Assembly (NCBI GenBank): GCA_026390015.1 | Contig: JAPLGS010000079.1 | Span: forward strand, 1 to 57,537 | Length of the DNA stretch: 57,537 nucleotides | Reading direction: 5' to 3' | Source of the DNA: Chloroflexota bacterium | GTDB lineage: Bacteria > Chloroflexota > Anaerolineae > Anaerolineales > Villigracilaceae | Shown here: piece after piece, positions 21,742 through 40,752 of the stretch | How the letters are laid out: every line of letters begins with the position of its first letter | How positions within the stretch are numbered: position 1 is the stretch's first letter | The notes under the pieces: generated by a model | Told to the model about the DNA's origin: nothing | The model's input: the letters and a program-made list of their open reading frames with translations, nothing else | Database searches by the model: none | Made by a program: the position numbers and the translations under genes

Positions 21742-21981
21742 ATGACAGATGTAATTAAAGAAGATCAAGTGTTGGATTGCTCTGGAATGCTTTGCCCCAT
21801 GCCTGTGGTAAAAACCTTCAAGGCAATGAAGGAACTTCAATCTGGACAGATATTAAAGATGGTGGCCACTGACCCTGGTGCGCCGCCTGATATGGAAGCA
21901 TGGAGTCGCCAAACGGGTAATGAATTACTTCGCTCCATGACAGAGGGTGGAAAATTCATCTTCTATATTAAGAAGAAATAA
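21742..21981 (+). CDS. tusA: TusA-family sulfur carrier protein
   Basis: A 79-residue TusA/SirA-fold protein started at the ATG at 21742, with AAGGAGG ten bases upstream. The motif DCSGMLCPMPVVKTFKAMKE contains the active Cys18 of the CPxP signature. TusA carries sulfane sulfur as a persulfide. In sulfur oxidisers TusA, DsrE and rhodanese relay sulfur to Dsr or sHdr systems. It is the first gene of the long rightward sulfur cluster and lies 38 bases before the DsrE2-like gene. The start at 21718 gives eight extra residues without a ribosome site. Confidence 0.92.
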   Translation: MTDVIKEDQVLDCSGMLCPMPVVKTFKAMKELQSGQILKMVATDPGAPPDMEAWSRQTGNELLRSMTEGGKFIFYIKKK

Positions 21982-22019
21982 ATTCCATTCTATTAAAAAT
22001 ATTAATATGGAGAAACCAC

Positions 22020-22544
22020 ATGTCAAAATCTGATCCGAACGCCCCGAAAAGACTTGCACTTATCGCCAGCAAGGGAACGCTTGATTGGGCCTATCCTCCG
22101 TTCATTCTCGCCAGCGCCGCTGGTGCGATGGGTTGGGAGGTGGGCATTTTCTTTACCTTTTACGGACTGACTCTGCTGAAACCAGAACTGACAGCCGCAG
22201 TTTCGCCTTTGGGCAACCCCGCCATGCCGATGAAAATGCCCTTTGGCCCTGAAGGATTCCAAAATATCAACTGGGTCATGCCAAATATACTCATGGCAAA
22301 CGTGCCTGGTTTTGAGAGCGTGGCAACAGGCTTGATGAAGCAAACTTTCCATAACAAAGGCGTTGCCACTGTTGAAGAATTGCGCCAATCCTGCGTGGAT
22401 ATGGATGTGCGCATGATCGGCTGTCAGATGACAATGGATGTCTTCGGCTTCAAGCGTGAAGAATTTATCAAAGAATGCGAGATCGGCGGCGCGGCTATGT
22501 TCCTTGAATACGCCGCTGACTCGGATGTGCAGTTGTTTGTTTAG
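22020..22544 (+). CDS. dsrE2: DsrE/DsrF-like sulfurtransferase (DsrE2 type)
   Basis: A 174-residue DsrE/DsrF/DrsH-like protein. The segment LALIASKGTLDWAYPPFILA followed by SAAGAMGWEVGIFFTFYGL is characteristic of the DsrE2 group, with a hydrophobic N-terminal half that may associate with the membrane. The conserved cysteines are in LRQSCVDMDVRMIGCQMTMD (about residues 127-140), the second being the usual persulfide Cys. Its place between tusA and dsrE supports sulfur relay. GGAG is found before ATG 22020. Confidence 0.85.
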   Translation: MSKSDPNAPKRLALIASKGTLDWAYPPFILASAAGAMGWEVGIFFTFYGLTLLKPELTAAVSPLGNPAMPMKMPFGPEGFQNINWVMPNILMANVPGFESVATGLMKQTFHNKGVATVEELRQSCVDMDVRMIGCQMTMDVFGFKREEFIKECEIGGAAMFLEYAADSDVQLFV

Positions 22545-22548
22545 ATAG

Positions 22549-22618
22549 ACAAATAAACACATCGACAAGCATACAAGTAAGCAGAGTAACTTTGTTTATT
22601 TGTATGCGTGTTTATCTG
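22549..22618. repeat. Imperfect palindromic intergenic repeat
   Basis: ATAAACACAT...GCATACAAGTAA is imperfectly repeated in inverted order as TTTGTTTATTTGTATGCGTG further on, allowing a long bent hairpin in the 102-base gap between the two DsrE-like genes. The TATTTGTATG... style resembles the gaps at 52650 and 33417. Confidence 0.5.
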
Positions 22619-22646
22619 CGTACTTAATTCATATTGGAGGGCAGTT

Positions 22647-23045
22647 ATGTTGTGGAAGACGAACGACCCGGAAATTAAAAAGATATTATATGTCCAAACT
22701 CATGGGGAAAAAGACCCTGAACGCACCGCAACTCCATTCTTCCTCGCCACAGCTGGCGCAGCAATGGACAACGAAGTTTGCATCTACTTTACGATGAACG
22801 GTCCGCAATGCCTTGAAAAAGGCAATGGCGATAAGATCGTCATTCCACGCAAGGGCGGCAATGGGAAGGAACTCAAGTATTTCATTGATCAAGCACTAGA
22901 CCTCGGCGTGCGTCTGCTTGTCTGCCAGCCTTCACTCGACCTGCACGGCTACACCATGGACGATATGATCGAAGGTGTTGAAATGATCGGCGGCGCGGCA
23001 TTCAACGACATGGCGTGTGACGCTGACGCGGTAATCGCTTTTTAA
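22647..23045 (+). CDS. dsrE: DsrE-family sulfurtransferase
   Basis: A 132-residue DsrE-fold protein, started at the ATG at 22647 with GGAGG eight bases before it. It contains ILYVQTHGEKDPERTATPFF, the cysteine segment VRLLVCQPSLDLHGYTMDD (Cys about residue 93), and the C-terminal GGAAFNDMACDADAVIAF. The conserved Cys should accept sulfur from TusA. DsrE proteins accompany sHdr systems as sulfur donors. The next gene is shdrC1, 59 bases on. Confidence 0.85.
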   Translation: MLWKTNDPEIKKILYVQTHGEKDPERTATPFFLATAGAAMDNEVCIYFTMNGPQCLEKGNGDKIVIPRKGGNGKELKYFIDQALDLGVRLLVCQPSLDLHGYTMDDMIEGVEMIGGAAFNDMACDADAVIAF

Positions 23046-23104
23046 AACTATTGGAATTCGCAAATTCGGATCATTCGCGTTAAAAAGATTTTTGAGGAGT
23101 CAGA

Positions 23105-23812
23105 ATGCCTACTACTCTCGAAAACTGGAATCCAGGCAAGGCTGAAAATCGTCATCCGCATGTGGCTTATGAAGAAAAAGAGCGCCTCTTCCTTGAAGTC
23201 AAAAACGATATGCGCTATAGTGACTTCCTTTATGGATGTTATGAGTGCGGCATCTGCGTTGCCACTTGTCCCTCTGCGCGATTCTATGATTTCAGTCCGC
23301 GCGTAATCGCGCAATCTATGGCGCGTGAAGATGTCGAACGCGTCTACGATATTATTACGGAAGATATTTGGAATTGCGCGCAATGCTTTTCATGCGTGCG
23401 TTGTCCACGCCAAAATAATCCTGGGGGATTGGTCACGATCTTACGCGAAGTCTCACTCAAAAATGGATTGCAGGAAACAAAAGATGCTTTGCAAGGGTAT
23501 AGCCGCGTGATCTATAAAGTCATGCTCAAGGGCAATCAAGTCTCGCCTGATATGCTTCAGCCTGATTTCTTCCCCGATTGGGGGCCATGGGTCACGGAAT
23601 TCAGCGCGAACATGCAGGTCTGGCGCAAAGCCATTCCGATGGATTCCATCCGTGGAGTCACCGATGCGGCCTGGCGCACTGACCGCAAGACTTTGCTCGA
23701 ACTCTACACCATCTGGTTCGAGTCAGGCAACATGGAGATCATCAAAGAACTTGATGAAAGTTTATACGACTTGTTAACTGAAGTCATGCAGGAAGAATTG
23801 GAAGAGGGATGA
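23105..23812 (+). CDS. shdrC1: Heterodisulfide-reductase-like subunit C (sHdrC1)
   Basis: A 235-residue iron-sulfur protein with two 4Fe-4S motifs, CYECGICVATCP (about residues 45-56) and CAQCFSCVRCP (about 91-101), as in HdrC. It lacks membrane helices. The C-terminal part (about residues 150-235) is unique and acidic. HdrC links HdrB to HdrA in electron transfer. Its position directly before shdrB1 and shdrA, and after tusA/dsrE, identifies it as the C1 subunit of the sulfur-oxidising Hdr-like complex, rather than part of a methanogen-type HdrABC or MvhADG complex. Confidence 0.86.
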   Translation: MPTTLENWNPGKAENRHPHVAYEEKERLFLEVKNDMRYSDFLYGCYECGICVATCPSARFYDFSPRVIAQSMAREDVERVYDIITEDIWNCAQCFSCVRCPRQNNPGGLVTILREVSLKNGLQETKDALQGYSRVIYKVMLKGNQVSPDMLQPDFFPDWGPWVTEFSANMQVWRKAIPMDSIRGVTDAAWRTDRKTLLELYTIWFESGNMEIIKELDESLYDLLTEVMQEELEEG

Positions 23813-23817
23813 TTCTT

Positions 23818-23906
23818 CGTCATTGCGAGAGCGATAGCCCGAAGCAATCTTCCTCACTGATATGGAGATTGCTTCGCCGGGAAAAACATCCTCCTCGCAA
23901 TGACAT
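23818..23906. repeat. Palindromic repeat family A, copy 1
   Basis: The outer arms GTCATTGCGAG and CTCGCAATGACAT bracket inner arms GAAGCAATCTTCC and GGAGATTGCTTCG. It can fold into one long interrupted hairpin in the gap between shdrC1 and shdrB1. Confidence 0.88.
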
Positions 23907-23949
23907 AGTAAATTATTGGTTTTATCAAACCTGAAAAAGGAGACTCGCC

Positions 23950-25170
23950 ATGACCGAAACCTTAACCACCGTTGAACAGATCCTCGAAAGAAAATCTCAC
24001 GCTGTCATACGTGACTCGTCCGTTGCGCCGACTCACGACATGCATGAACTTTTGTTTGAACTTGAAGCCAAGAGTGAGATTATTGTTCAAAGAGTTCCTG
24101 AGCCGTACGTTGAAATGACCACCAAGTATGGCCGCAAGAAAAAAATCCCCATCGAACACACCTGGCACCACAAATCATGCGGCCACTGCGGACATATTCC
24201 CGGTTATGCATCCTCCATCCTCTGGCTTCACCGCCAATTTGGTTTGGACTACATCGACCCCACAGACCAAACCTCCTGCACGGGTTGGAATTACTACGCC
24301 TCCGCCGCATCCAACGCGGCGGGACAAGCTTCAGTGATGGCGCGAAATTTTGCAGCAGCCTATGAAACAGGTTACTTCCCCTTGATCCACTGCGGTACAA
24401 GTTATGGCCATTACAAAGAAATTCGTGAACAACTTGTACATCATAAAGAATTGCGTGACGAAGTCCGCCGCATTCTGGGCAAGATGGGCAAGCCGCTCGT
24501 CATCCCTGAGGAGATCGTCCATTACAGTGAGTGGGTGCATGTGATGCGGAATCGAATCGCCGAACGACAAACTCTCGACATGAGCATGATCACCGCCACT
24601 GTGCATCCCGCCTGTCATTATTATAAGATCGTCGCTGAAGATGCGATCTACGATCCTGATATCTACGGCGGACAGCGCACAGCGGTTGTGACTGCCATGC
24701 TCGAATCCATCGGCGTGAATGTCGCGGATTATTCCACCTGGTTCGATTGCTGCGGATTCGGCTTCCGTCATGTTTTGGTGCAGCGTGACTTCACTCGTTC
24801 ATTTTCTGTTTTACGCAAAATTGAAACCATGAAGAACGAAGTCAACCCCGACTTAACCGTTACACATGATACTGGCTGTGTCACATCGTTGGATAAGAGT
24901 CAATTCGCTGCCAAAGCGCATGACCGAAAAGTTGGCATCCCGATCCTTTCCGACGCGCAAGTCGCCGCGCTGGCAATGGGCGCGCATCCTTTCCGCGTTA
25001 TCCAATTTCACTGGCATTCCACAGACTGGCGCCCCTTCCTCGATAAACTCGGCGTCAACTGGCAAAAATATTGGGACGAGTTCCAGGGCGATCTCGACCA
25101 AATTCGCGCGGGTACGAAATCTGGAATCACCTGGGAAGACGCGGATGCGCCTGTCAATTTGACGGCATAA
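23950..25170 (+). CDS. shdrB1: Heterodisulfide-reductase-like subunit B (sHdrB1)
   Basis: A 406-residue HdrB-type protein. The first cysteine-rich region has SCGHCGH (about residue 77) and SCTGW (about 109), the second HPACHYYK (about 219), DCCGFGFRH (about 266) and DTGCVTS (about 306). HdrB normally has two CCG motifs that build non-cubane [4Fe-4S] clusters; here the first is changed to CTG, so only the second is classic. This fits recollection that sHdrB1 differs from methanogen HdrB. It should form the site of disulfide or persulfide chemistry with LbpA. The gap before the gene holds a family A repeat. Confidence 0.86.
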   Translation: MTETLTTVEQILERKSHAVIRDSSVAPTHDMHELLFELEAKSEIIVQRVPEPYVEMTTKYGRKKKIPIEHTWHHKSCGHCGHIPGYASSILWLHRQFGLDYIDPTDQTSCTGWNYYASAASNAAGQASVMARNFAAAYETGYFPLIHCGTSYGHYKEIREQLVHHKELRDEVRRILGKMGKPLVIPEEIVHYSEWVHVMRNRIAERQTLDMSMITATVHPACHYYKIVAEDAIYDPDIYGGQRTAVVTAMLESIGVNVADYSTWFDCCGFGFRHVLVQRDFTRSFSVLRKIETMKNEVNPDLTVTHDTGCVTSLDKSQFAAKAHDRKVGIPILSDAQVAALAMGAHPFRVIQFHWHSTDWRPFLDKLGVNWQKYWDEFQGDLDQIRAGTKSGITWEDADAPVNLTA

Positions 25171-25331: not shown

Positions 25332-26387
25332 ATGACATCTGGAAAAGTACTTATCATCGGCGGTGGACCCTCGGGACTTGAATCCGCGCGCTGCGTGGCT
25401 GAACTCGGCGGGGAAGTTGTGCTCATCGAAAAACGCGAACGACTCGGCGGCACGCCTGATCGCGAGTCTTATGCCAAGTTGACTCATCATTGGCGTGACG
25501 CGTCTGAAGCGATGGCTGAAATGGCCGAGTCTGTCACCGGTAATAAAAAAATTGAAGTGAAGTACAGCGCCGAAGTGAAGTCGATCTCTGGAGAAGCTGG
25601 CAGTTTCCAGGTTCAGATCGAAGCGGGCGGCATAGCCGAGTCAATTGAAGCGGGCGCGGTCATTGTCGCCACGGGTTTCCAGCATTTTGATCCGGGCCGC
25701 GCGACGCAATATTACAATTACTATTCTTTTCCCGATGTCATCACGTTGACCGATCTCGAAAAGATGTTGAAGGAAAATAAAGTTGTGCGCCCGTCGAACG
25801 GTGAAACGCCAAAGAAGATCGCGTTCATTCAATGTGTGGGTTCGCGTGACCGCCAAATTGGAAATGAATATTGTTCAAAAGTTTGCTGCGGTATTGCCGG
25901 CAAACAAGCCATCGAACTGCGCGAACAAATTCCCGATTCAAAAGTGATGATCTTTTACATTGACATGCGCATGTATGGCTATTGGGAAAACGAGATCTAC
26001 TGGCCCGCGCAGGAAAAATATAAAGTTAATTTCGTGAAAGGCGTCATCAGCGAAGTACTCAAGAAGGGCGACAAACTTTTGATCCGCGGCGAAGACACCA
26101 CCATGAGCCGCCCGATGGAAGTGACCATGGATCTGGTCGTGCTTTCGGTCGGTATGGAGCCGAGCGCAGGCACACGCGCAGTGGCGCAACTCATGGGCAT
26201 CCAACAAAATAAATATGGCTTCATCGAATCGGGCGGCGCTGGCGGTCTCGACCCCGTAGCCACCTCGCGCCCGGGCATCTTTGTCGCGGGCGCCGCATCG
26301 GGTCCATCCGACCTCGACGACTCCATCGCACAGGCAGGTCTCGCCGCCGCGCGCTCGCTCGCATCCATCCGCAAAGTAATGGCGTAA
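25332..26387 (+). CDS. shdrA: Heterodisulfide-reductase-like subunit A (sHdrA), FAD and Fe-S
   Basis: A 351-residue flavoprotein started at 25332, where GGAGGAAGC precedes the ATG; the longer frame from 25071 reads through the preceding gene and a repeat. FAD-binding GGGPSGLESARC is at about residues 10-21, with a second glycine segment VIVATGF. The HdrA cluster motif C168...YCSKVCCG (about residue 180) binds one [4Fe-4S]. The C-terminal VSVG...DSIAQAGLAAARSL block fits. It lacks the N- and C-terminal ferredoxin domains of long HdrA, as expected for sHdrA. Its stop overlaps the next ATG (TAATG). Confidence 0.88.
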   Translation: MTSGKVLIIGGGPSGLESARCVAELGGEVVLIEKRERLGGTPDRESYAKLTHHWRDASEAMAEMAESVTGNKKIEVKYSAEVKSISGEAGSFQVQIEAGGIAESIEAGAVIVATGFQHFDPGRATQYYNYYSFPDVITLTDLEKMLKENKVVRPSNGETPKKIAFIQCVGSRDRQIGNEYCSKVCCGIAGKQAIELREQIPDSKVMIFYIDMRMYGYWENEIYWPAQEKYKVNFVKGVISEVLKKGDKLLIRGEDTTMSRPMEVTMDLVVLSVGMEPSAGTRAVAQLMGIQQNKYGFIESGGAGGLDPVATSRPGIFVAGAASGPSDLDDSIAQAGLAAARSLASIRKVMA

Positions 26388-27166
26388 TGCAACCACAACA
26401 ACCAAGTCACATCGTCAAACAAAAGACAGGCCCGGATGATCCTGTTTTGCAGGAGACCTTGGTGGATGCGCTCGCGCAAGTCTCACCGGCGGATGTGATT
26501 TCCATTGCTGACGAATTATCCGCCCGACACAAACGCATCTTTCTTAATCTGAAAACTGACTCAGTCTCGTTGACATCTTCCTTCGCCGACATCGCGGCTG
26601 CGGTCACGCACACAAAAGCGAACGCGCGCACGTTGACAAATTATTTTGCGGAAAGCGACCTTGCGGGCAAACTAATTACCGAATTACTAATTACCGAATT
26701 GCCTGTACCTGTCCGCGTGGCGATCTTCGTTGAAAAAGTAAACGCGCTCGATACACGTCTCGCCCTCGAACTCGCAAGTGGACTTTTACATTACACATCT
26801 CCCAACGATAACTGGCTGTGGACTCGCTGGCTATGGGATCCAACGACAGGCACAGGCATTCTGCCATTGTTAGCGGGCAGCACACATAACCTGCGCGCAG
26901 AAAATTTTGCCGATGGATACGCGCGCGTGGGTTTGGTCACTGCCATGAGTATGAAATTTGGCGAAGGCACAGGCTTGTGGACCGACGAGTTGATGAGTAA
27001 CAAGAAACGCGCGCAATTCGCCAACAGCGCTTTTTTAGCCTGCGCGTATAACGTTTATCTTTACGGCACAACAAGCTGGAGATTAAGCCGCGAGTTTAAT
27101 AATTTGTTACCTTCCCTGCCAAATATGGCAAGGAAGTTGCTGGGATTACCGAAAGTAAAAAACTAA
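26387..27166 (+). CDS. sHdr-cluster-associated hypothetical protein (Hyp)
   Basis: A 259-residue protein that overlaps shdrA by one base (TAATG), so it is translated with it. It is mostly helical, without cysteine motifs or a signal sequence; tokens include ELLITELPVPVRVAIFVEKV and GEGTGLWTDELMSNKKRAQF. From memory, known shdr clusters carry an uncharacterised Hyp gene between shdrA and the second Hdr pair, and this position matches. A duplicated ATTACCGAATT near 26680 encodes the short ITELL-ITEL repeat. It could be an assembly or scaffold factor (inference). Confidence 0.6.
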   Translation: MQPQQPSHIVKQKTGPDDPVLQETLVDALAQVSPADVISIADELSARHKRIFLNLKTDSVSLTSSFADIAAAVTHTKANARTLTNYFAESDLAGKLITELLITELPVPVRVAIFVEKVNALDTRLALELASGLLHYTSPNDNWLWTRWLWDPTTGTGILPLLAGSTHNLRAENFADGYARVGLVTAMSMKFGEGTGLWTDELMSNKKRAQFANSAFLACAYNVYLYGTTSWRLSREFNNLLPSLPNMARKLLGLPKVKN

Positions 27167-27255: not shown

Positions 27256-28539
27256 ATGGCCGCTAAGTTTGAAAAAGTTAAATCAGTAGAAAAAGAACAT
27301 GCCATTGTAGACGGCGTGGATATTTCTGGTGATTGGAATCGCATGTTCGAACAGCGTGTGATCACAGAATACACCCCCGAACTCATTGAAAAAGTTGCGG
27401 ATATTCCAGGCGCAGAATCATTTGCAAATTGTTATCAATGCGCAAAATGCATTCCCGTTTGCCCTGTGGATATTGTCGGCAATTACGGTCCGCGCAAACT
27501 TTATCGCTACGCCCAAACTGGCATGGACTTGACCGAAGCGCCCGAATTGTGGCTTTGCACCACCTGCAAGAATTGTCTGCGCGTCTGCCCCAAAGAAGTG
27601 GATATGATCAAGATCATGCCTGCCGCGCGCGAGCAGGCGATTCTCGCTGGTAAATTTGTCCCAGCCGAATTGCAACAAGCGTTTGAAAATACCGCCAAGA
27701 CGGGCAATCCGCTTGGACAACCGCAGCGCAAACGTGACGCATGGATCCAAAACGCGGGCGTGACAATTCCGATCATCAAAGATCTGGCTCGCCCAGTGGA
27801 TGTGCTCTGGTATGTCGGCTCGTATCCATCCTATCATCCGCGCGGCATTGACGCGGCTTCAGCGGCGGCGCGTATCTTCTCCGCGCTGGGAATTGACTTT
27901 GCGATTCTAGGAAGAGAAGAAAAAGATGACGCCGATTCACAGCGACTTGCTGGCGAAAAAGGTTTGTTCGAAATGATGGCGGAGAGCAATATTGCCACAT
28001 TCAATAATTATGAGTGGAAGGAAATGGTCGTCACAGGTCCGCATGAACTTAATGCCTTCAAGAATGAATATCCCAAATACGGTTTCAACCGACCTGTATC
28101 ACATTACACCACTTTTCTTGCCCGTTACCTAGATCAACTCAAGCCGTTGCTTAAACATGAAGTCAATGTAAAAATTACTTATCACGACCCGTGCTATCTC
28201 GGACGTCACAACGGCGAATACGAAGCCCCGCGTAAATTACTTGAAGCTATTCCTGGCGTGGAACTGGTTGAGATGCAGCGCAACCGCGAAAACGGCTATT
28301 GCTGCGGCGGCGGTGGCGGCGGCATGTGGATGGACTCGTTCACTGCCAAACATACAAAGATGCGCCTCTCCGAAAAGCGCGCCATGGAAGCCGCGTCCAC
28401 GGGCGCGAATGTGCTGGCTGTCGCTTGTCCGTTTGAAGTCTCGCGCTTTGAGGATGCGGTCAAGTCCACGGGCAATGAACATGTGACGGTGAATGATATT
28501 TTGGAATTGTTGGATCGATCCATGCGCGGAGAGCAGTAA
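27256..28539 (+). CDS. Ferredoxin-CCG fusion, sHdrC2/B3-like subunit
   Basis: A 427-residue protein started at the ATG at 27256 (AGGAG upstream). Residues about 58-69 (CYQCAKCIPVCP) and 101-112 (CTTCKNCLRVCP) bind two [4Fe-4S] clusters as in HdrC. The rest is an HdrB/GlpC-like CCG domain: the first CCG unit is degenerate (no Cys near DVLWYVGSYPS) and the second is intact (HDPCYLG about 311, YCCGGG about 348, ACPFE about 391). It combines C and B functions in one chain and sits between the sHdr core and etfBA, as expected for the subunit called HdrB3 or C2B2 in type II-like clusters (assignment from memory). Confidence 0.8.
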   Translation: MAAKFEKVKSVEKEHAIVDGVDISGDWNRMFEQRVITEYTPELIEKVADIPGAESFANCYQCAKCIPVCPVDIVGNYGPRKLYRYAQTGMDLTEAPELWLCTTCKNCLRVCPKEVDMIKIMPAAREQAILAGKFVPAELQQAFENTAKTGNPLGQPQRKRDAWIQNAGVTIPIIKDLARPVDVLWYVGSYPSYHPRGIDAASAAARIFSALGIDFAILGREEKDDADSQRLAGEKGLFEMMAESNIATFNNYEWKEMVVTGPHELNAFKNEYPKYGFNRPVSHYTTFLARYLDQLKPLLKHEVNVKITYHDPCYLGRHNGEYEAPRKLLEAIPGVELVEMQRNRENGYCCGGGGGGMWMDSFTAKHTKMRLSEKRAMEAASTGANVLAVACPFEVSRFEDAVKSTGNEHVTVNDILELLDRSMRGEQ

Positions 28540-28651: not shown

Positions 28652-29407
28652 ATGAACATCGTAGTAGCAATAAAACACATCCCCAGCATCGCGGATGATT
28701 TGCCCGTCAAAGGCAACAACGTGGACTTTGACTCGGTGGATTTCGTGCTCAATGAATTCGATGAGCAGTCTATTGAGCAGGCAGTGCTGGTGAAGGAAGC
28801 AACGGGGGGAACGGTAACCGTCGTCGGCGTGGATATGATCGGGGAATTGGATGGTGTCTTACATCTCGCGCTGGCAAAAGGCGCGGATAAGGCAGTTAAG
28901 ATAACAGGGGATGATCCAGCCGCAGATTCACATCAACAAGCCAAATGGCTGGCTGAAGCGATCAAGGGCATGTCGCCGAATATCGTCTTCGCGGGCGTGC
29001 AAGCATCAAATGATCTCGACGGCCAGATCGGCCCGATGATCGCCGCACATCTCGACATGCCCTACATCGGCGGAGTCAGTTCGGTGGAAGTTGCGGGAGA
29101 TACAGCGACAGTCAACAAAGAATTCGCGGGCGGCTTTGGCGCAAAGTATGCAGTCAGTTTGCCAATGGTGGTCGGCGTACAAGCATCCACTAAACCGCCG
29201 CGTTATGCGCCCATTAGCAAAGTGAGACAAGTTGCGCAGACAGCAACAATTGAAAAAGTTGCGCCATCTGGCGAATCTAGCGCACGGCTAACAATGAAGA
29301 AAATGGCGCCGCCCGTTGTGACAGGTCACGCTGAAATGTTCACAGGTTCGTCAAAGGAAGTCGCCGCGAAGATCGTAGATTTGTTGAAGAGTAAGGGACT
29401 GGCGTAA
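28652..29407 (+). CDS. etfB: Electron transfer flavoprotein subunit beta
   Basis: A 251-residue EtfB, with the typical N-terminus NIVVAIKHIPS, NEFDEQSIEQAVLVKE and the nucleotide-binding part ANNDLDGQ-like (QASNDLDGQIGPMIAAHL), ending with KPPRYAPISKVRQ. EtfAB carries two electrons as a flavoprotein (FAD in A, AMP or FAD in B). Placed after the sHdr subunits and before a membrane Fe-S oxidoreductase, it should shuttle electrons from the sHdr complex to that protein. There is no FixC or FixX gene, so it is not a nitrogen-fixation type set. Confidence 0.93.
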   Translation: MNIVVAIKHIPSIADDLPVKGNNVDFDSVDFVLNEFDEQSIEQAVLVKEATGGTVTVVGVDMIGELDGVLHLALAKGADKAVKITGDDPAADSHQQAKWLAEAIKGMSPNIVFAGVQASNDLDGQIGPMIAAHLDMPYIGGVSSVEVAGDTATVNKEFAGGFGAKYAVSLPMVVGVQASTKPPRYAPISKVRQVAQTATIEKVAPSGESSARLTMKKMAPPVVTGHAEMFTGSSKEVAAKIVDLLKSKGLA

Positions 29408-33001: not shown

Positions 33002-33416
33002 TATTCCTGAAGACCGCTACTACTGGGTGGAGAAACACGCGTGGGTGCGGCTCGAAGCGGATGGCACGGTGACGATCGGGATCACCGATGTGGCGCAACA
33101 CATGGCGAGAGGGATTCTGACCGCCACGCCGAAAGATGTTGGGCGTACTGTGCAAAAAGGTAAAGGCGCGGGTACGTTGGAAAGCGGCAAGTGGGTGGGG
33201 CCTGTCACTTCGCCGATCACGGGTGAGATCGTTGAAGTGAACGAGGCGGTGAAAGCCAAGCCCGCGTTGCTCAATGAAGACCCATATGGCGCGGGTTGGT
33301 TCGTACGCGTCAAAGTGAATGATTGGGCTGGCGAAAGCGCGTCGCTGCTGACGGGTGAGGCGGCAGTGGCTGCGTATCAAAAGTTTATGGAAGAGCAGGG
33401 ACTCAACTTCGAGTAA
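32979..33416 (+). CDS. lbpA1: Lipoate-binding protein LbpA, copy 1
   Basis: A 145-residue GcvH-fold protein. The lipoyl-lysine segment is TLESGKWVGPVTSPITGEI with Lys71; the motif ES(G/A)KWVGP replaces the ESVKAASD motif of glycine-cleavage GcvH, which is the mark of LbpA. No gcvT or gcvP is nearby. In sHdr organisms LbpA carries sulfur as a lipoyl-bound intermediate for the sHdr complex. GGAG precedes ATG 32979. A tandem-repeat gap and a second LbpA gene follow. Confidence 0.9.
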   Translation: MATVRGCNIPEDRYYWVEKHAWVRLEADGTVTIGITDVAQHMARGILTATPKDVGRTVQKGKGAGTLESGKWVGPVTSPITGEIVEVNEAVKAKPALLNEDPYGAGWFVRVKVNDWAGESASLLTGEAAVAAYQKFMEEQGLNFE

Positions 33417-33496: not shown

Positions 33497-33943
33497 ATGA
33501 TCTACTACGCCTGTGACATCCCCGAAGACTTGACCTACGACATTGAGCATGATGTGTGGATTCGTTTTGAGGGTGATATCGCAACTCTCGGCCTGACCGA
33601 TGTTGCGCAAACGCGCTGCGGAAAATTTGCAGCGATCAGTTTTCGCGATATTGGAAAAAAGGTTGCGCAAGGCAAGACATTGGCAACTATAGAAAGTGCC
33701 AAATGGGTTGGTCCATTCCCAGCTCCATTTTCGTGTGAGATACTGGAAGTGAATGAAGCAGGTTTTGCAAAAGATATTTTGCTGGCAAATAAAGATCCGT
33801 ATGGAATTGGCTGGCTGGTGAAGGTACAACCAACGAATCTGGAAAATGAACGTGGTCATTTGGTCACAGGCCAGGAAGCGGCTGAGAAGTACAAAGTGAG
33901 AATACAGGAATTGAAAGTTAATTGTTTGAGATGTATCGACTAA
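33497..33943 (+). CDS. lbpA2: Lipoate-binding protein LbpA, copy 2
   Basis: A 148-residue GcvH-fold protein with lipoyl Lys69 in TIESAKWVGPFPAPFSCEI. It differs from LbpA1 in ESAKW instead of ESGKW, and it has a cysteine (Cys41) in QTRCGKF and another in FSCEI (Cys80). The two LbpA forms may serve different steps or partners of the sHdr cycle (inference). No Shine-Dalgarno site is seen because of the repeat, so translation may be weak or coupled. Synthesis of the lipoyl group is expected from the ligase downstream. Confidence 0.88.
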   Translation: MIYYACDIPEDLTYDIEHDVWIRFEGDIATLGLTDVAQTRCGKFAAISFRDIGKKVAQGKTLATIESAKWVGPFPAPFSCEILEVNEAGFAKDILLANKDPYGIGWLVKVQPTNLENERGHLVTGQEAAEKYKVRIQELKVNCLRCID

Positions 33944-33987: not shown

Positions 33988-34890
33988 ATGAAAAAGATCT
34001 TCAAATGGATCGGTATCGTGCTGGGTTCACTGGTTGGTTTAATTCTTATTATCGGTCTTGTTTTGATCCTGATCGGTAACGCGCGTCTCAATAAAACCTA
34101 TGATTTCCCGCCTTCCAATATCGCCATCCCCACAAATGAAGCGAGCATTGCAGATGGAAAACATCGAGCTGTAACGCTTTGTGAGGGCTGCCACGGCAAG
34201 GATCTGGGCGGAATTGAGAAATGGTTTAACGCAGGTCCGCTTGGAATGGTCGATTCAGCCAACCTGACAGCGGGTGAAGGCGGCGTCGGGCAGGAATTCA
34301 CATCCGATGAAGACTATGTGCGAGCCATTCGCCATGGTATTGACCCTGAAGGGAAACCCATTTTTATGCCTGCGGTCAACTCCACCTCTCATCTAAGCGA
34401 TGAAGACCTGGGTGCATTGATCGCTTATCTAAAAACGATCCCGCCAGTGGATCGAAAGACCAGCGGACATCATTTCACACCGCTGGCAAAGATCTTGTTC
34501 GTAGCGGGTGTGCTCCCAGCCATGCCGGCTGAAGTTGTGAGTCACGAAACACACGTCACCGCCCCGGAGCGTGGTGTAAGCGTGGAATATGGTGAATATA
34601 TGGTAAACACCAACGACTGTCGAATCTGTCACGGAAAAGAACTGGGCGGCGCTCCTTTCCCTGATCCAACCATCAAGATCATTACGCCCAATATCACACC
34701 TGGCGGCGAGGTTGGCTTTTGGTCGGAAGAGGAATTCATTGGCACGATCCACTCTGGTATTACACCAAGCGGACATCAACTCAATGAGCATATGCCCTGG
34801 GAGACCTATAAATTATTTACCGATGATGAGTTGAAAGCGATCTATATGTATTTGCATTCAATACCAAAACAGGCGCAATACACCCCATAA
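33988..34890 (+). CDS. Membrane-anchored diheme cytochrome c
   Basis: A 300-residue protein with an N-terminal hydrophobic anchor (about residues 6-30, WIGIVLGSLVGLILIIGLVL) and two cytochrome c domains. Heme motifs: C65-E-G-C68-H69 and C211-R-I-C214-H215. Met residues near FMPAV and EHMPWE are candidate axial ligands. It faces outside the membrane and carries electrons. A link to thiosulfate dehydrogenase (TsdA) is possible because of the two-heme plan, but the typical TsdA Cys ligand is not evident. It could also accept electrons from the quinol side. The RBS is AAAGGAG. Confidence 0.78.
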   Translation: MKKIFKWIGIVLGSLVGLILIIGLVLILIGNARLNKTYDFPPSNIAIPTNEASIADGKHRAVTLCEGCHGKDLGGIEKWFNAGPLGMVDSANLTAGEGGVGQEFTSDEDYVRAIRHGIDPEGKPIFMPAVNSTSHLSDEDLGALIAYLKTIPPVDRKTSGHHFTPLAKILFVAGVLPAMPAEVVSHETHVTAPERGVSVEYGEYMVNTNDCRICHGKELGGAPFPDPTIKIITPNITPGGEVGFWSEEEFIGTIHSGITPSGHQLNEHMPWETYKLFTDDELKAIYMYLHSIPKQAQYTP

Positions 34891-34908: not shown

Positions 34909-35994
34909 ATGTCCAAAAAAATCCGCTTGCTGTATATGGAAGGAGTATCCCCACTCCGCTCGCAGACCGTTTATCACGCGGTCGCGTATGCGATGAAGGA
35001 AGACACGCCGAACACGATCATCATGGTCTCACCCAATGCGCCGTATGTGTGCATTGGCTATCATCAGGATATGCAAAAAGAAGTTGATATGGAATATGTG
35101 CAAGCCAATGGATTAACCGTGCTTCGGCGCGAGGTCGGCGGCGGCGCGGTATTTCTGGATAACGGTCAATTGTTCACGCAGTGGATTTTCCACAAGAGCG
35201 ATCTGCCATCATCACTCGAAGAACGCTTTAAATTTTATATTGACCCGCTTATCGCAACCTATCAGGCGCTGGGAATCAACGCAAACCATCGTCCAATCAA
35301 TGATGTACATGTCAACGGGAAAAAGATCGGCGGCACGGGCGCGGCTCAAATGGGAATCGCTGAAGTCGTTGTCGGTAGTTTAATGTACACCTTTGACAAA
35401 AAGACCATGTCGAAAGTGCTCAAAGTCCCTTCGGAGAAAATGCGCGACAAGATTTTCGAGTCGCTTGAAGCATATATGACCACGATGACTGAGGAACTCG
35501 GCGCATCGCCTGACCGTACCATGGTCAAGGATCTATATATGAAGAAAGTTTCCGAAGCGTTGGGCGCAGAAGTCTACGAAGGTGAATGGACAGCGGATGA
35601 GGAAGCGATGGCGCAGGAGATCGACGCGCGCTTCATGTCTGATGAGTGGCTGTATCAAAAGGGACGCCTGCAGCAGCAGGGCGTGAAAATTCATCAGGAT
35701 GTACATGTGGTCGAAGCGGCATTCAAATCACAGGGCGGATTGATCCGTATCATCGCCCGCCTGCGCGAAGGCCGCATTGATGATGTCGCTATTTCAGGTG
35801 ACTTCACTTTGCTGCCATCGTTCGCATTGGGTGCGCTGGAACAATCCATTCGCGGTTTGAGTGCCACGCCAGAAACATTGAAATCAAAAATCGAAGAAGC
35901 ATATTATCGCCTGAGCATCCAATCGCCTGGCGTCTCGCCCGCCGATTTCACAACCGCGATCATGAACGCGGTTAACCCTCCACAGCCCGCATAA
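34909..35994 (+). CDS. slpl(AB): Lipoate-protein ligase for LbpA (sLpl(AB)-like)
   Basis: A 361-residue LplA-type ligase. Catalytic motifs are RREVGGGAVFLDNGQL (about residues 73-88) and NGKKIGGTGAAQ (Lys about 136). The C-terminal third (after residue 240) is an LplB-like accessory domain that holds the lipoate pocket. It should attach lipoate or octanoate to the LbpA lysines. From memory, sHdr clusters carry a dedicated sLpl(AB) together with radical-SAM LipS1/LipS2; those partners are not in this window. It sits 18 bases after the cytochrome gene. Confidence 0.87.
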   Translation: MSKKIRLLYMEGVSPLRSQTVYHAVAYAMKEDTPNTIIMVSPNAPYVCIGYHQDMQKEVDMEYVQANGLTVLRREVGGGAVFLDNGQLFTQWIFHKSDLPSSLEERFKFYIDPLIATYQALGINANHRPINDVHVNGKKIGGTGAAQMGIAEVVVGSLMYTFDKKTMSKVLKVPSEKMRDKIFESLEAYMTTMTEELGASPDRTMVKDLYMKKVSEALGAEVYEGEWTADEEAMAQEIDARFMSDEWLYQKGRLQQQGVKIHQDVHVVEAAFKSQGGLIRIIARLREGRIDDVAISGDFTLLPSFALGALEQSIRGLSATPETLKSKIEEAYYRLSIQSPGVSPADFTTAIMNAVNPPQPA

Positions 35995-36011: not shown

Positions 36012-37682
36012 ATGACAAATTATGGATTTCTGATTGACCAAAGTAAATGTATCGGATGTCACGCGTGCAGCACCGCGTGCAAGTCCGAGAATCAAGTACC
36101 GCTTGGCGTGAATCGCACGTGGGTCAAGTATGTTGAAACGGGTGCGTATCCCGATGTGCGCCGCCGCTTTCAGGTTACGCGCTGTAATCATTGCGCCAAT
36201 CCGCCGTGTGTGCGCATCTGCCCCGTCACCGCCATGTATCAGCGTAATGACGGCATCGTCGAATTTGATCCGAGCATTTGCATCGGATGTAAATCCTGCA
36301 TGCAAGCCTGTCCCTACGACTCGATCTATCTTGACCCCGAAACCAACACCGCCGCGAAATGCACTTTCTGCGCGCATCGTTTGGATGTGGGACTCGAACC
36401 CGCCTGCGTTGTGGTTTGCCCCGAACATGCGATCCTGGCTGGCGACTTGAATGACTCCGCTTCAGAAATAAGCCGAAAGCTGTCCACTGCGCAAGCGACA
36501 GTTCGCAAGCCTGAGCAGGGTACAGGCCCCAAACTCTTCTATATCAACGGCAACGATTGGTCACTGCATCCATCTGCTTCACCCGCAGGCGAAACTTATG
36601 TCTGGGCAGATAAAATCACCGAGCAGAATACATCACCGTATGAATTGCCCGTATTCCCCGCTGGTCGAGTAGCCGAAGGCGTATCGAGACCCAACCAAAG
36701 AGCATCGAAATCAGGGGCGCCGCTACGCATTCCGCAAGAACAGGGACGCCCGCTTAACGGTCCCATTCAAATTGGCGGGCGTGTGGCCGAGCAAATGGTG
36801 CAGACCGCATACAATGCACAACATAAAATTCAGTGGCATTGGGAATTACCATCCTATCTCGTCACAAAAAATATCGCGGGCGGATTATTCATGTTAATGA
36901 GCCTCGGTGTGATGTTTAATCTCTTCACCTTTGATACGCCAGCTTTTCTCGCCGCAGGCATCACCGCCCTGGTATTTATGCTTCTCACGGTGATCTTGCT
37001 TATCAAAGATCTCTCGCAGCCAAAACGATTCTTGAATATCTTATTGCGCCCGCAGTGGAAATCATGGGTGGCACGCGGCGCATTCATCCTTGTTGGATTC
37101 ACCGCTGTTGCCGGACTCTGGTGGCTGATCGAAGGCGCGGCGTACATGAATTGGCTTTCAAACGATGTCGCCTTTACACTCCGCCCCATCGCGGCATGGC
37201 TCACATTTCCACTCGCGTTGTTGGCCGTCATCTACACTGCCTCCCTGCTTGGTCAAGCCGAGGGACGCGACATGTGGCAGAGCAATCTGCTTCCGTTCCA
37301 ACTCTTCGCGCAATCCATGATGGTCGCGAGCGGAGTGTTGCTGATCGTGAATCTGTTCGTCTCTTTCCCCGCTGATTTGCACTCGCTTCTTATGGCATTC
37401 TTCCCTGCCAGCATCGCGCTCAACTTGCTCTTCACACTTGCAGGGAAATTCAATTCCTTTGCGTCCGAAGTTGCCATGCTTGGCTATCGAGAGATGACTC
37501 TGGGAAAATTCCGCAACCACTACTGGTGGGGCGGCATTACGCTGGGGCATCTCATTCCGCTGGCGTTGTTATTCGCATTCAGTACATTTGCATTGCCAGT
37601 TGCTGTTGTATGTGCCGTCGTTGGCTTGTTCTTTTATGAATATGCTTTCGTGATGGCTCCGCAGCATATACCGAATTCGTAA
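36012..37682 (+). CDS. Fused SoeB-SoeC-like iron-sulfur and membrane subunit
   Basis: A 556-residue protein. Residues 1 to about 150 hold four ferredoxin motifs: C13/C16/C19/C23, CNHCANPPCVRICP (about 57), CIGCKSCMQACP (about 90) and CTFCAHRLDVGLEPACVVVCP (about 117). The C-terminal half (from about 283) has about eight hydrophobic helices of the NrfD/DmsC type. In sulfite dehydrogenase SoeABC these are two proteins, SoeB and SoeC; here they are one chain. The linker (about 217-227, AGRVAEGVSRP) comes from a family B repeat. There is no twin-arginine signal, so the Fe-S part is cytoplasmic. It moves electrons from SoeA to quinone. Confidence 0.8.
   Translation: MTNYGFLIDQSKCIGCHACSTACKSENQVPLGVNRTWVKYVETGAYPDVRRRFQVTRCNHCANPPCVRICPVTAMYQRNDGIVEFDPSICIGCKSCMQACPYDSIYLDPETNTAAKCTFCAHRLDVGLEPACVVVCPEHAILAGDLNDSASEISRKLSTAQATVRKPEQGTGPKLFYINGNDWSLHPSASPAGETYVWADKITEQNTSPYELPVFPAGRVAEGVSRPNQRASKSGAPLRIPQEQGRPLNGPIQIGGRVAEQMVQTAYNAQHKIQWHWELPSYLVTKNIAGGLFMLMSLGVMFNLFTFDTPAFLAAGITALVFMLLTVILLIKDLSQPKRFLNILLRPQWKSWVARGAFILVGFTAVAGLWWLIEGAAYMNWLSNDVAFTLRPIAAWLTFPLALLAVIYTASLLGQAEGRDMWQSNLLPFQLFAQSMMVASGVLLIVNLFVSFPADLHSLLMAFFPASIALNLLFTLAGKFNSFASEVAMLGYREMTLGKFRNHYWWGGITLGHLIPLALLFAFSTFALPVAVVCAVVGLFFYEYAFVMAPQHIPNS
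36660..36692. repeat. Family B repeat inside the SoeB-SoeC fusion gene, in frame
   Basis: GCTGGTCGAGTAGCC-GAAGG-CGTATCGAGACC matches the left unit of the double copy at 25174-25310 closely. It is read in frame and supplies part of the linker of the SoeBC-like protein. Confidence 0.85.
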
Positions 37683-37687
37683 TTATG

Positions 37688-37792
37688 ATGTCATTGTGAG
37701 GAGTTGTGAAGCGGCGACGAAGCAATCTCAAGTAATTTGTGTACTTTTGATAATAGGAGATTGCTTCGCCAAAGTGCGGCTCGCAATGACAT
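37688..37792. repeat. Palindromic repeat family A, copy 5
   Basis: ATGTCATTGTGAG...GAAGCAATCTC and GGAGATTGCTTCG...CTCGCAATGACAT bracket a 25-base loop. It sits between the SoeBC-like gene and soeA. Confidence 0.87.
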
Positions 37793-37806
37793 AACAAAGA
37801 GAATCC

Positions 37807-40752
37807 ATGAAAAAAACAAAATCCGTTCCTCAAACATCCGCAGGCATTGCCGTTCCACAATTCACCGCGTCTGACCGTAAACCTGTCAAACTAACTGAAG
37901 TGGTCCACTCAGACGGACGCATCAGCCAATATCCGCCTCCCGAAGTATGGGATGACTGGGTTGAATGGGATGGCAAAGAATGGCCTAAACGTGTTGCACG
38001 CCAATACACGCTCGTGCCGACTGTCTGCTTCAACTGCGAATCTGCGTGTGGACTTCTCGCATACATCGACAAAGATACTTTTGAGATTCGCAAATTCGAA
38101 GGCAACCCTGTTCATCCTGGCAGCCGTGGACGGAACTGCGCGAAAGGTCCTGCTACGCATAATCAAGTCTACGACCCTGAGCGGATTCTTTATCCGCTAA
38201 AGAGAATTGGCAAACGCGGCGAAGGAAAATGGGAACGTATTTCATGGGAGCAGGCCTTATCTGAGATCGCGGAAAAAATGCGGGCGAGCCGCGAGAAACG
38301 ACGTGATGGAATTGTCTATCACGTTGGCAGACCTGGCGAAGACGGATACACCAACCGCGTCATTCAAGCCTGGGGCGTGGATGGTCACAATAGTCACACC
38401 AACATTTGCTCATCCTCTGCGCGCGCAGGATATAACTTTTGGGCGGGGCAAGACCGCCCGAGTCCCGATTATGCCAACGCGCGCGTCATCCTTTTAATTT
38501 CAAGTCATCTTGAAACGGGGCATTATTTTAATCCGCACGCGCAGCGCATCATCGAAGCCAAAAGCGATGGCGCGAAACTGATCACCTTTGACCCGCGTCT
38601 CTCGAATACTGCCAGCATGAGCGATGTCTGGCTGCCAACATGGCCAGGCAGTGAGAATACAATTCTTCTGGCAATTGCAAATCATTTAATTCAAACAAAT
38701 AAATATGACAAGGAATTTGTCCGCAGGTGGACGAATTGGAAAGAGTTTCTCAAGCATGTTAAAGCGTCAACATCCGCTGAATGGGATTCGATCCGCGGCT
38801 TAATTCCTGATTCCGAATCCCTGATCACCTATGATATTTTCGACCTGGTTCTCAAGACACTCTATGCTGAATATACCTTTGAACGCGCCGCGCAAGAATC
38901 AGATGTGCCGATCGAACGCATTCAAGAGACCGCGAAATACATTGCGAATTGCGGCGGTAAACTCGCCACGCATGTATGGCGCAGCGCCAGTGTTGGCAAC
39001 CTCGGCGGGTGGCAGGTGGCACGCTGTATCTTTTTCCTCAACGTGCTGACTGGCAGTGTTGGCACGCCTGGCGGCACGTCGCTCACCAACTGGAATAAAT
39101 TTGTGCCCAAGCCGTTCAAGTCTGCGCCCGCGTTCAATGCGTGGAATGAATTGCATTATCCAAATGAATGGCCGCTCGCGCATTATGAAATGTCCTTCCT
39201 ACTTCCGCACATGCTCGAAGAAGGCCGCGGCGATATTGATGTTTACTTCACGCGCGTCTACAATCCGATGTGGGTCAACCCCGACGGTTTCATGTGGCTC
39301 AAAGCGCTCAAGGATGAATCCAAAATAAAATGTTATGTCGCGCTCACACCTACCTGGAATGAAACCGCGTGGTTCGCTGATTATGTTTTACCAACAGGTC
39401 ACGGCCCCGAGCGCCATGATCTGATGAGTCAGGAAACTCACTCGGGACAATGGATCGCATTCCGCCAACCTGTGCGGCGCGTGGCGATGGAACGCGCGGG
39501 CATCAAAGTTGATTTCACCTATCAAGCCAACCCAGGTGAAGTTTGGGAGGAAAACGAATTTTGGATTCAACTCTCCGCCCGATTCGACCCTGATGGCAGT
39601 TTGGGCATTCGACAATATTTTGAGTCGCCTTATCGCCCCAAAGAGATCATCACTGTTGACGAATACTATCAATGGATATTTGAAAACTCCGTGCCTGGCC
39701 TGCCCGAAGCCGCGGCAAAAGAAGGACTCGCTCCTCTGGCATACATGCGCAAATATGGTGTGTTCGAATTGAAGAAGGAAAATTACATCCCCTATGAAAA
39801 GGTGCTGGGTAAATTTGTGAATGGTAATTTGATGGATGGTGACTTGCCTATTACCAATTGCACGCTTGATAATAATGACCGTGTCCTAAATGACAACCAA
39901 ATTATTGGCGTAAATATTGATGATGAAGCAAAAGTTGGGTTTGATACACCCAGCCGTAAACTGGAATTCTTCAGCGACACGTTATCAAATTGGGGCTGGC
40001 CTGAAAAAGAAAATGTCATTCCGTGGTCGGTCAAGAGTCATGTTGATCCTGCCAATATTAATCTCGAAAAAGGCGAGATGATATTACTGCCGAATTTCAG
40101 ATTGCCGACATTGATTCACACGCGCAGCGCAAATGCAAAATGGTTGTATGAGATCAGTCACAAGAATCCGATCTGGATGAATCCCGATGACGCGAAACGT
40201 ATCGGCATGGATACTGGCGACCTCGCGCGCGTAGACACTGAGATCGGCTATTTCATTGACAGTGTATGGATCACCGAGGGCATCAAACCTGGTGTGATCG
40301 CGATCAGTCATCACTTGGGACGTTGGCGCTTGCAGGAAGAATCAGGAGTCAGCCGCGGCTCGTCGAATCTGGTTGATTTGAAAGATGACGGCCAAGGCGG
40401 ATTTCTTCTGCGAGTCATTCACGGCGCGACCGCATGGAAATCCTCCGACCCGGATACCAGCCGCATCTGGTGGAGCGATGTAGGTGTGACGCAAAACCTC
40501 ACACACGCTGTTCACCCCGATCCTGTTAGCGGCGTACACTGCTGGCTGCAAAAAGCAAATGTCCGCAAAGCAAATGTGGATGAAAAGGCTGGCGATGTTT
40601 TTGTGGATACAAATAAATCGATGGAAAAATATCGCGAGTGGTTAAAACTGGCACGCCCCGCCGAGCAAGTCAGCCCGGATGGGAATCGCCGACCGTATTG
40701 GCTGGCGCGTCCTCTCAAGCCTGTCAAAGAGGCATATAAGTTAAAGAAATAA
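37807..40752 (+). CDS. soeA: SoeA-like cytoplasmic molybdopterin oxidoreductase (sulfite dehydrogenase catalytic subunit)
   Basis: A 981-residue molybdo-bis(pyranopterin) enzyme of the DMSO-reductase family. A [4Fe-4S] motif CFNCESAC (about residues 76-83) with NCAKGP (about 111) is at the N-terminus. The Mo-binding region contains NICSSSARAGY, whose Cys (about 202) is a candidate Mo ligand. No twin-arginine signal is seen, so it is cytoplasmic, unlike PsrA or PhsA. The gene follows the SoeBC-like fusion and is the last of the sulfur cluster. It would oxidise sulfite to sulfate, or reduce a sulfur compound in reverse; the direction cannot be read from sequence. Confidence 0.8.
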   Translation: MKKTKSVPQTSAGIAVPQFTASDRKPVKLTEVVHSDGRISQYPPPEVWDDWVEWDGKEWPKRVARQYTLVPTVCFNCESACGLLAYIDKDTFEIRKFEGNPVHPGSRGRNCAKGPATHNQVYDPERILYPLKRIGKRGEGKWERISWEQALSEIAEKMRASREKRRDGIVYHVGRPGEDGYTNRVIQAWGVDGHNSHTNICSSSARAGYNFWAGQDRPSPDYANARVILLISSHLETGHYFNPHAQRIIEAKSDGAKLITFDPRLSNTASMSDVWLPTWPGSENTILLAIANHLIQTNKYDKEFVRRWTNWKEFLKHVKASTSAEWDSIRGLIPDSESLITYDIFDLVLKTLYAEYTFERAAQESDVPIERIQETAKYIANCGGKLATHVWRSASVGNLGGWQVARCIFFLNVLTGSVGTPGGTSLTNWNKFVPKPFKSAPAFNAWNELHYPNEWPLAHYEMSFLLPHMLEEGRGDIDVYFTRVYNPMWVNPDGFMWLKALKDESKIKCYVALTPTWNETAWFADYVLPTGHGPERHDLMSQETHSGQWIAFRQPVRRVAMERAGIKVDFTYQANPGEVWEENEFWIQLSARFDPDGSLGIRQYFESPYRPKEIITVDEYYQWIFENSVPGLPEAAAKEGLAPLAYMRKYGVFELKKENYIPYEKVLGKFVNGNLMDGDLPITNCTLDNNDRVLNDNQIIGVNIDDEAKVGFDTPSRKLEFFSDTLSNWGWPEKENVIPWSVKSHVDPANINLEKGEMILLPNFRLPTLIHTRSANAKWLYEISHKNPIWMNPDDAKRIGMDTGDLARVDTEIGYFIDSVWITEGIKPGVIAISHHLGRWRLQEESGVSRGSSNLVDLKDDGQGGFLLRVIHGATAWKSSDPDTSRIWWSDVGVTQNLTHAVHPDPVSGVHCWLQKANVRKANVDEKAGDVFVDTNKSMEKYREWLKLARPAEQVSPDGNRRPYWLARPLKPVKEAYKLKK

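Follow-up and report, generated by a model that had tools for sequence, protein, structure and literature searches.

The window analysed here is a stretch of 57,537 nucleotides (contig JAPLGS010000079.1 of assembly GCA_026390015.1, C90 in our numbering) from a Chloroflexota bacterium of the order Anaerolineales. At positions 21742-40752, on the + strand, it carries a cluster of genes for a predicted sHdr-LbpA sulfur-oxidation system with EtfAB. The gene set and order had been proposed in an earlier note on this DNA, and both are present with the expected Pfam domains: all the genes it named are open and run in one direction, 5' to 3', from tusA to soeA (open reading frames and Pfam), with intergenic gaps of at most 161 bases. 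The note had left out a di-haem cytochrome c and a small zinc-finger-like open reading frame, which take their places in the following list, given in gene order.

21742..21981, + strand: tusA, sulfur carrier with a CPMP motif (Pfam TusA 4.9e-23; the sole TusA match in the genome)
22020..22544, + strand: dsrE2-like sulfurtransferase (Pfam DrsE_2 4.3e-47; NCBIfam SulfCarrDsrE2 206 bits, slightly below the cut-off of 210)
22608..23045, + strand: dsrE-like sulfurtransferase (Pfam DsrE 4.2e-17); going by relatives, the real start is probably slightly downstream of 22608
23105..23812, + strand: sHdrC1, with two 4Fe-4S-type Cys motifs (Fer4_8 1.5e-07; top NCBIfam model HdrC, 74.6 bits against a cut-off of 350)
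23950..25170, + strand: sHdrB1, proposed catalytic subunit of CCG type (CCG 5.8e-08; HdrB model 122 bits against a cut-off of 450; alignment)
25332..26387, + strand: sHdrA, FAD protein (Pyr_redox_2; PDB match and tree)
26387..27166, + strand: sHdrH, all-helical, the "hyp" of the earlier note (55-row alignment; structure model)
27256..28539, + strand: sHdrB3, fused C2-B2 type (CCG 7.6e-19; Fer4_8 1.1e-09)
28652..29407, + strand: etfB (ETF 3.8e-25)
29514..30461, + strand: etfA (ETF_alpha 8.1e-31; PDB match)
30586..32691, + strand: EtfD-like membrane Fe-S/CCG protein, proposed EtfAB:quinone link (CCG 2.1e-15; Fer4_9 3.2e-10; hydropathy)
32696..33001, + strand: small zinc-finger-like protein, frame broken in the second half (zf-Di19; conservation)
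32979..33416, + strand: lbpA1-type lipoyl protein without a C-terminal cysteine (GCV_H 3.5e-37; sequence; relatives)
33497..33943, + strand: lbpA2, with an N-terminal Cys and a C-terminal CxxC (GCV_H 4.6e-31; sequence; relatives)
33988..34890, + strand: membrane-anchored di-haem cytochrome c (Cytochrome_CBB3 1.7e-14; CxxCH at 65 and 211)
34909..35994, + strand: Lpl(AB)-type lipoate:protein ligase (LplA-B_cat 1.3e-37; LplB model over 272-355, 1.6e-15, 57.1 bits against a cut-off of 65)
36012..37682, + strand: SoeBC-like fusion of ferredoxin and NrfD parts (Fer4_11 3.1e-25; NrfD 1.6e-13)
37807..40752, + strand: SoeA-like molybdopterin subunit (Molybdopterin 2.2e-25; relatives)

Going by its genes, the cluster of this Anaerolineales genome belongs to the type II sHdr systems. 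Such systems are defined by shdrC1B1AHB3 with etfAB in one cluster (PMC11582611), which is the content found in the window. The C2/B2 fusion that belongs to type II is seen in sHdrB3, where a single chain of 427 aa carries both the two 4Fe-4S motifs and the CCG domain; the earlier note had called it a "ferredoxin-CCG subunit", a gene that is indeed present and whose identity can now be refined. The best PDB match of sHdrA is 6tjr_A (2.4e-90), collinear over nearly the whole length (residues 6-345), which we take to be the sHdrA of Hyphomicrobium denitrificans (the PDB itself names it "fumarate reductase/succinate dehydrogenase flavoprotein domain protein"), whereas methanogen HdrA chains score lower (1.4e-64 at best) and align mainly with the C-terminal two thirds. 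The NCBIfam models HdrA, HdrB and HdrC all score far under their cut-offs. In a tree of 40 rows the window's protein falls inside the sHdrA group and three methanogen HdrA form a separate group (support 99/97); 6tjr attaches to the sHdrA side by a long branch, with support of 92/78, marginally below the tool's support star. With its midpoint root through very divergent paralogues and no acetogen HdrA among its rows, this tree agrees with a sulfur oxidiser but is by itself not strong evidence. A check set beforehand thus placed sHdrA outside the methanogen HdrA clade, and identity with methanogen HdrAB is rejected by the sub-cut-off models, the better collinear match to 6tjr_A and the separate tree group.

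No Pfam or NCBIfam match at 0.001 was obtained for sHdrH. Its AlphaFold2 (AF2) model is confident and all-helical (pLDDT 90.0); a Foldseek search against the PDB returned nothing at E <= 0.001, and the top VIA-align rows are 8-oxoguanine DNA glycosylases (3fhf: Z 7.0, rmsd 4.8, 181 residues; 3knt: Z 6.3), below the tool's trust level, a likeness that may serve as a weak lead. Null results of structure searches, here and for the zinc-finger-like protein, do not establish new folds.

The core order C1-B1-A-H-B3-etfB-etfA is kept in most sufficiently long relatives, with sHdrB1 identity down to 64%, and its recurrence argues for an arrangement beyond chance (25 + 80 loci were compared, with 15 redundant pairs, and not every locus spans the whole cluster). 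Exceptions are L045, L046, L054, L133 and L139, which have C1 at another place in the cluster, and the Bacteroidota loci, in which B3 and etfB are separated by lipoate genes. In relatives from the window's own family the order from tusA through the ligase recurs, with the zinc-finger-like gene but not the cytochrome c, and several also have soeBC-soeA after it; some of these loci contain insertions and others are cut by contig ends. In a sample of 400 genomes of the phylum, sHdrB1 was matched at 1e-20 or better in 26, the window's own included; the match in G336, with 29-30% identity only, is probably a paralogue. At 0.50, the G+C content of the cluster equals that of both flanks, and nothing in the composition points to a foreign insert. 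Among named records, metagenome-assembled genomes (MAGs) titled "Chloroflexi bacterium" and "Anaerolineales bacterium" come nearest, in agreement with the Chloroflexota origin suggested earlier. The host genome (4.3 Mb; 95.2% complete, 3.9% contaminated) has three COX1 matches.

We read the cluster as a sulfur-oxidation system of the type II sHdr-LbpA kind, in an Anaerolineales bacterium that also has respiratory oxidases, and put the probability of this at roughly 0.85. Gene content, order, family membership and co-occurrence carry the reading, and every reaction, direction and electron route in it is proposed from them. TusA, DsrE2 and DsrE would hand sulfane sulfur to lipoylated LbpA, and sHdrC1-B1-A-H-B3 would oxidise the LbpA-bound sulfur to sulfite, with electrons passing along an Fe-S/FAD chain to EtfAB, to the EtfD-like membrane protein and on to quinone. 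The SoeA/SoeBC-like enzyme would turn sulfite into sulfate, also feeding quinone; the Lpl(AB)-type ligase would attach lipoate, probably made by a LipA encoded elsewhere, and the small zinc-finger-like protein may be a further component. The proposed pathway from sulfane sulfur to sulfate feeding quinone, as the earlier note had drawn it, is well supported by sequence and context.

The EtfD-like protein lies beside etfAB and combines 4Fe-4S and CCG domains with four hydrophobic segments (simple hydropathy scan). By domains and position it fits a membrane EtfAB:quinone link of the EtfD/EMO type, and it would presumably reduce quinone. In two close relatives (L093, L095) etfD is only 48% identical, etfAB 78-85%, and the zinc-finger-like gene is missing; an exchange of etfD is possible there.

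The pair directly after the ligase gene shows the domains expected of SoeA (Molybdopterin) and SoeBC (Fer4_11 plus NrfD), as had been noted before, and sulfite oxidase would be the best reading of its sequence. SoeA was found in 22 of the 26 genomes with an sHdrB1 match as against 40 of the 374 others (Fisher p 3.8e-16; this value and that for the zinc-finger-like gene are nominal, because related genomes are not independent); it is lacking in G028, G135, G179 and G336. Its place directly after the cluster and its co-occurrence with sHdr fit sulfite as the product. The closest proteins compared are from a Thermomicrobium roseum plasmid (58%), Rhodococcus jostii RHA1 (56%) and Halomicrococcus (50%), each beside a BC-type protein (36-45% identity), and in the Thermomicrobium loci G174 and L103 the pair stands directly before tusA. 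An alternative that concerns this last step only is that the pair is a polysulfide, thiosulfate or tetrathionate reductase adjoining sHdr by chance. Its best family models are PhsA (thiosulfate reductase; 207.5 bits against a cut-off of 694) and TtrB (192.9 bits against 416), and the best PDB match, 2vpw, is named thiosulfate reductase; these scores, however, lie far under the curated cut-offs, and SoeA, with its ferredoxin and NrfD partner, has neither a twin-arginine start nor a hydrophobic segment, unlike Psr, Phs and Ttr, which are exported enzymes (the comparison lacked a characterised SoeA). Two of the three relatives adjoin sulfur-transfer or sulfite-export genes: in R. jostii RHA1 DsrE-like and TusA genes precede the pair, in a neighbourhood of MBL-fold hydrolase genes, and in Halomicrococcus it follows rhodanese and TauE; the third, in T. 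roseum, does not. We regard a reductase as unlikely and retain the sulfite oxidase reading.

For the Hdr complex itself another function has been proposed: Islam et al. (PMC6776052) suggested for the same kind of cluster in T. roseum, strongly induced in stationary phase, that it oxidises thiols to disulfides during starvation, with the thiol joined to a carrier such as TusA, rather than sulfane sulfur to sulfite. In the window an enzyme of sulfite-oxidising type follows the cluster directly, and across the phylum sample SoeA co-occurs with sHdr, both of which argue against disulfide formation and leave it improbable.

Genes for CODH/ACS (cooS, acsB, cdhD, acsC, acsV and an acsE-like gene) occupy 45912-57537, starting about 5 kb downstream of SoeA, in the same genome as the three COX1 matches. 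That the Hdr-Etf set is an electron-bifurcating module of these Wood-Ljungdahl genes and no sulfur oxidiser, for which this proximity and the best PDB match of EtfA (6fah_A, 4e-47, the Etf of caffeyl-CoA reductase, with others close behind) could be cited, is very improbable, given that in five relatives the 7.5 to 18 kb following the cluster contain no match to CODH/ACS, that of these five G080, G018 and G096 have acsB on another contig and G120 and G337 lack it, that acsB is above cut-off in 5 of the 26 sHdr genomes searched (G000, the window's own, with G018, G080, G055 and G096; G391 weakly) as against one of eight without sHdr, that TusA, DsrE, LbpA and the ligase are not known to take part in the Wood-Ljungdahl pathway, and that sHdrA groups with 6tjr and not with HdrA. 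As a conserved link, the Wood-Ljungdahl partnership is rejected, since these genes are not a kept neighbour in the five relatives and acsB occurs in few sHdr genomes.

Several observations weigh against the reading as a sulfur-oxidation system. SoeA is far from characterised chains (2vpw matches over residues 65-329 only), and its T. roseum homologue is on a 918-kb plasmid with no sulfur gene nearby. RuBisCO has no match in the host genome; SoxY has none either, but no control genome matched, so its absence is not shown. No sulfur-delivering enzyme lies within the cluster (Sqr, TsdA and rhodaneses were not searched in the genome), and LbpA1 departs from the two-cysteine pattern of LbpA proteins in having an N-terminal but no C-terminal cysteine.

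The lipoyl lysine is present in both LbpA proteins (ESGKW in LbpA1, ESAKW in LbpA2). In LbpAs this lysine is strictly conserved and so are two cysteines, N- and C-terminal, except in some archaeal LbpAs (PMC6067878). LbpA2 has both, and its C-terminal CxxC recurs in 46 of 47 non-redundant relatives. LbpA1, named by place and similarity, may at most be supposed to work like an LbpA. Of the relatives' LbpA1 rows, 50 when redundancy is removed, 17 likewise lack the C-terminal cysteine, namely 16 titled Chloroflexi/Chloroflexota, Anaerolineae, Anaerolineales or Anaerolinea, plus G337 of the same family; the other 33 show a Cys within their final 22 residues (an automatic count, in which L136 and L146 are not clean ends).

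Lipoate attachment is provided for inside the cluster, where the lipoate ligase recognised earlier is of Lpl(AB) type by LplA-B_cat and the LplB model; two further Lpl/LipB-type proteins occur in the genome, together with one GCV_H protein besides the two LbpA, on another contig and presumably GcvH. To call the set self-contained, as the earlier note did, goes too far: the cluster has no sulfur-delivering enzyme, a search of the window's 95%-complete genome for LipS1 gave no match at 1e-10 (LipS2 was not part of this genome-wide search), and LipA is encoded elsewhere. LipA is above cut-off in 25 of 25 genomes, the window's included, and LipS1 is matched at 1e-10 in 8 of the 25, weakly in G179. 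With LipS1/S2 reported in 74.3% of sHdr bacteria (PMC10332631), the window's genome represents a known minority state. G080, which has the most similar sHdrB1 among the 400 genomes (95%), has no counterpart of the cytochrome c and ligase between lbpA2 and soeBC; the genes standing there instead encode a third lipoyl protein, an LplA-like ligase, two radical-SAM proteins, which their company suggests to be LipS2 and LipS1, and another ligase. In L030, a close relative, a block lbpA3-lplX-lipS2-lipS1-slpl takes this place (13019-18029), and G028 and G061 have a similar one on another contig. All 14 LbpA3 rows lack the C-terminal Cys and 13 of the 14 also the N-terminal one. Partial blocks of a similar kind occur in Bacteroidota, Calditrichota and KSB1 loci.

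The small zinc-finger-like gene encodes about 90 residues and lies between etfD and lbpA1. It matches zf-Di19 at 1.5e-06 (28.8 bits against a cut-off of 27.5), a profile also matched at 0.1 or better by all 24 relatives scanned. Fifteen positions are invariant in 24 rows, including Cys4, His17, His19, His24, Cys45, Cys48 and His84, with Cys7 nearly so, a pattern that suggests zinc binding. In the window the gene is split into two pieces that lie in different frames, while intact copies occur in relatives; we ascribe the break to an assembly error or a recent event. The AF2 model is confident (pLDDT 92.0) and has no PDB match at E <= 0.001 (best VIA Z 4.1). The profile matches 25 of the 400 phylum genomes, 24 of which also have an sHdrB1 match (Fisher p 3.6e-35, with G336 counted positive). 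In the 25th, G064, the cluster runs from the end of sHdrH onward at a contig start, which explains the missing sHdrB1 match, and among sHdrB1-matching genomes only G231 is without the gene, G336 aside. It is present in 40 of 58 non-redundant loci that span etfD to the downstream lbpA (Chloroflexota 32/42, HR28 1/1, Actinomycetota 5/5, unlabelled 2/2, Bacteroidota 0/6, Calditrichota 0/1, KSB1 0/1; labels from record titles, the Chloroflexota class including Thermomicrobium titles and further phylum genomes); gene order differs in the Bacteroidota, Calditrichota and KSB1 loci. The gene thus travels with the sHdr set almost without exception, and our literature searches found no description of it: among the matches listed from open-licence papers, no sHdr paper holds "zinc finger". 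In L109, L110, L111, L112 and L115 a gene of roughly 170-190 aa replaces it between etfD and lbpA1, and in L047 (12190-12756) such a gene, with a weak sub-cut-off MarR-like match, stands beside it; this gene is possibly a regulator.

Taken together, the zinc-finger-like protein may belong genuinely to the type II sHdr systems of Chloroflexota and Actinomycetota, as a component that has so far gone unrecognised; it might, for instance, be a zinc-dependent sensor or partner of either LbpA or the EtfAB-membrane link. In one Anaerolineales family, moreover, LbpA1 and LbpA2 may have divided their work, LbpA1 having lost its C-terminal cysteine; for this combined proposal we see the chances as evenly balanced.

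Two other genes can be mentioned briefly. The di-haem cytochrome c has no match in the relatives' loci compared (the 25 and 80 with their 15 redundant pairs, not all reaching that place). A DUF2270 membrane protein (40852..41934, + strand; DUF2270 3.6e-64) neighbours the cluster and directly follows soeA in all five relatives' stretches read there; whether it is part of the sulfur system is uncertain.

Clusters of this kind have been described before. T. roseum has a 19-gene cluster (trd_0160-0142) with hdrABC, etfAB, tusA, dsrE1, dsrE2 and three lbpA, up 45-fold on average in starvation, in an organism then called Chloroflexi (Islam et al. 2019, PMC6776052) and now placed under Thermomicrobiota at NCBI; its relatives are counted within the phylum in our 400-genome sample. 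The Thermomicrobium loci compared, T. roseum itself not among them, have the same order as the window, including the zinc-finger-like gene. Where T. roseum has three lbpA the window has two, the third lying between dsrE and hdrC1 in the Thermomicrobium loci, and their LbpA1 keeps the C-terminal Cys that the window's lacks. A Group III arrangement with EtfBA is known from Actinobacteria and Firmicutes (Cao et al. 2018, PMC6067878), and in Hdr cluster II of Sulfobacillus etfAB adjoins a long HdrC that has CCG domains and six transmembrane helices (Justice et al. 2014, PMC4378227); the assignment of this cluster to type II is our own. These share with the window C1-B1-A-H-B3 plus etfAB in one cluster and two or three lbpA, whereas the window adds SoeBC-SoeA, the zinc-finger-like gene and, in its own genome, the cytochrome c. 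Type I sHdr-LbpA of H. denitrificans resembles the window in sHdrA (presumably 6tjr), LbpA, an Lpl(AB)-type ligase and sulfur carriers, but C2 and B2 are separate genes in type I and etfAB is not part of its definition (PMC11582611), in contrast to the fused sHdrB3 and etfAB here; in H. denitrificans lipS1-lipT-lipS2-slpl(AB) adjoins the cluster (PMC10332631), unlike in the window's genome with no LipS1 match. Hdr-like, lipoate-binding and carrier genes have also been reported from Chloroflexaceae MAGs, with the annotation called uncertain (PMC13384644). All these reports show that the window's cluster belongs to an already known kind. When plasmids were searched for a type I reference, three from Acidithiobacillus proved to carry an isolated HdrB-like gene and one match came from a cyanobacterium; these were not used. 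In an Acidithiobacillus ferrooxidans plasmid (L154, 787-4490) such a gene (52% to sHdrB1) lies near GcvH-like and hemerythrin-domain genes, and other sHdr genes were not found in the 16.4 kb read.

The suggestion that a Chloroflexota cluster would be new for the phylum does not hold, in view of the T. roseum cluster, the Chloroflexaceae report, the 26 of 400 genomes and the relatives titled Chloroflexi or Anaerolineales. A pattern search for C1B1A-hyp-C2B2 assigned 334 of 406 sHdr sequences to 329 Proteobacteria MAGs (PMC12345210), and the available part of that paper names no Chloroflexota for sHdr. For the class Anaerolineae no paper on its sHdr was found in the open-licence literature, and its occurrence there may be a still unreported extension of the range inside the phylum. 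At least 557 relatives were confirmed by scanning named genomes; the best 80 of these, among which close kin are over-represented, include titles of Actinomycetota, Bacteroidota, Calditrichota, KSB1 and Rokubacteria alongside Chloroflexota and Thermomicrobium, and one of them (L086, "Anaerolineales", DeMMO6_15) has an sHdrB1 identical to that of the same-genus genome G018. In the window's genus three of 11 sampled genomes have sHdrB1, and two of the eight without it are single-contig assemblies, so the patchiness does not come solely from incomplete assembly.

These results confirm that sHdr-type genes recur in Chloroflexota, with a patchy distribution, and provide a clean Anaerolineales example, joined to an enzyme of sulfite-oxidising type. 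The exchange of lipoate blocks between close relatives remains a point of interest. A natural LbpA variant without one of the two conserved cysteines makes questions on LbpA chemistry directly testable, and a small protein that tracks sHdr over 400 genomes does the same for the make-up of type II systems.

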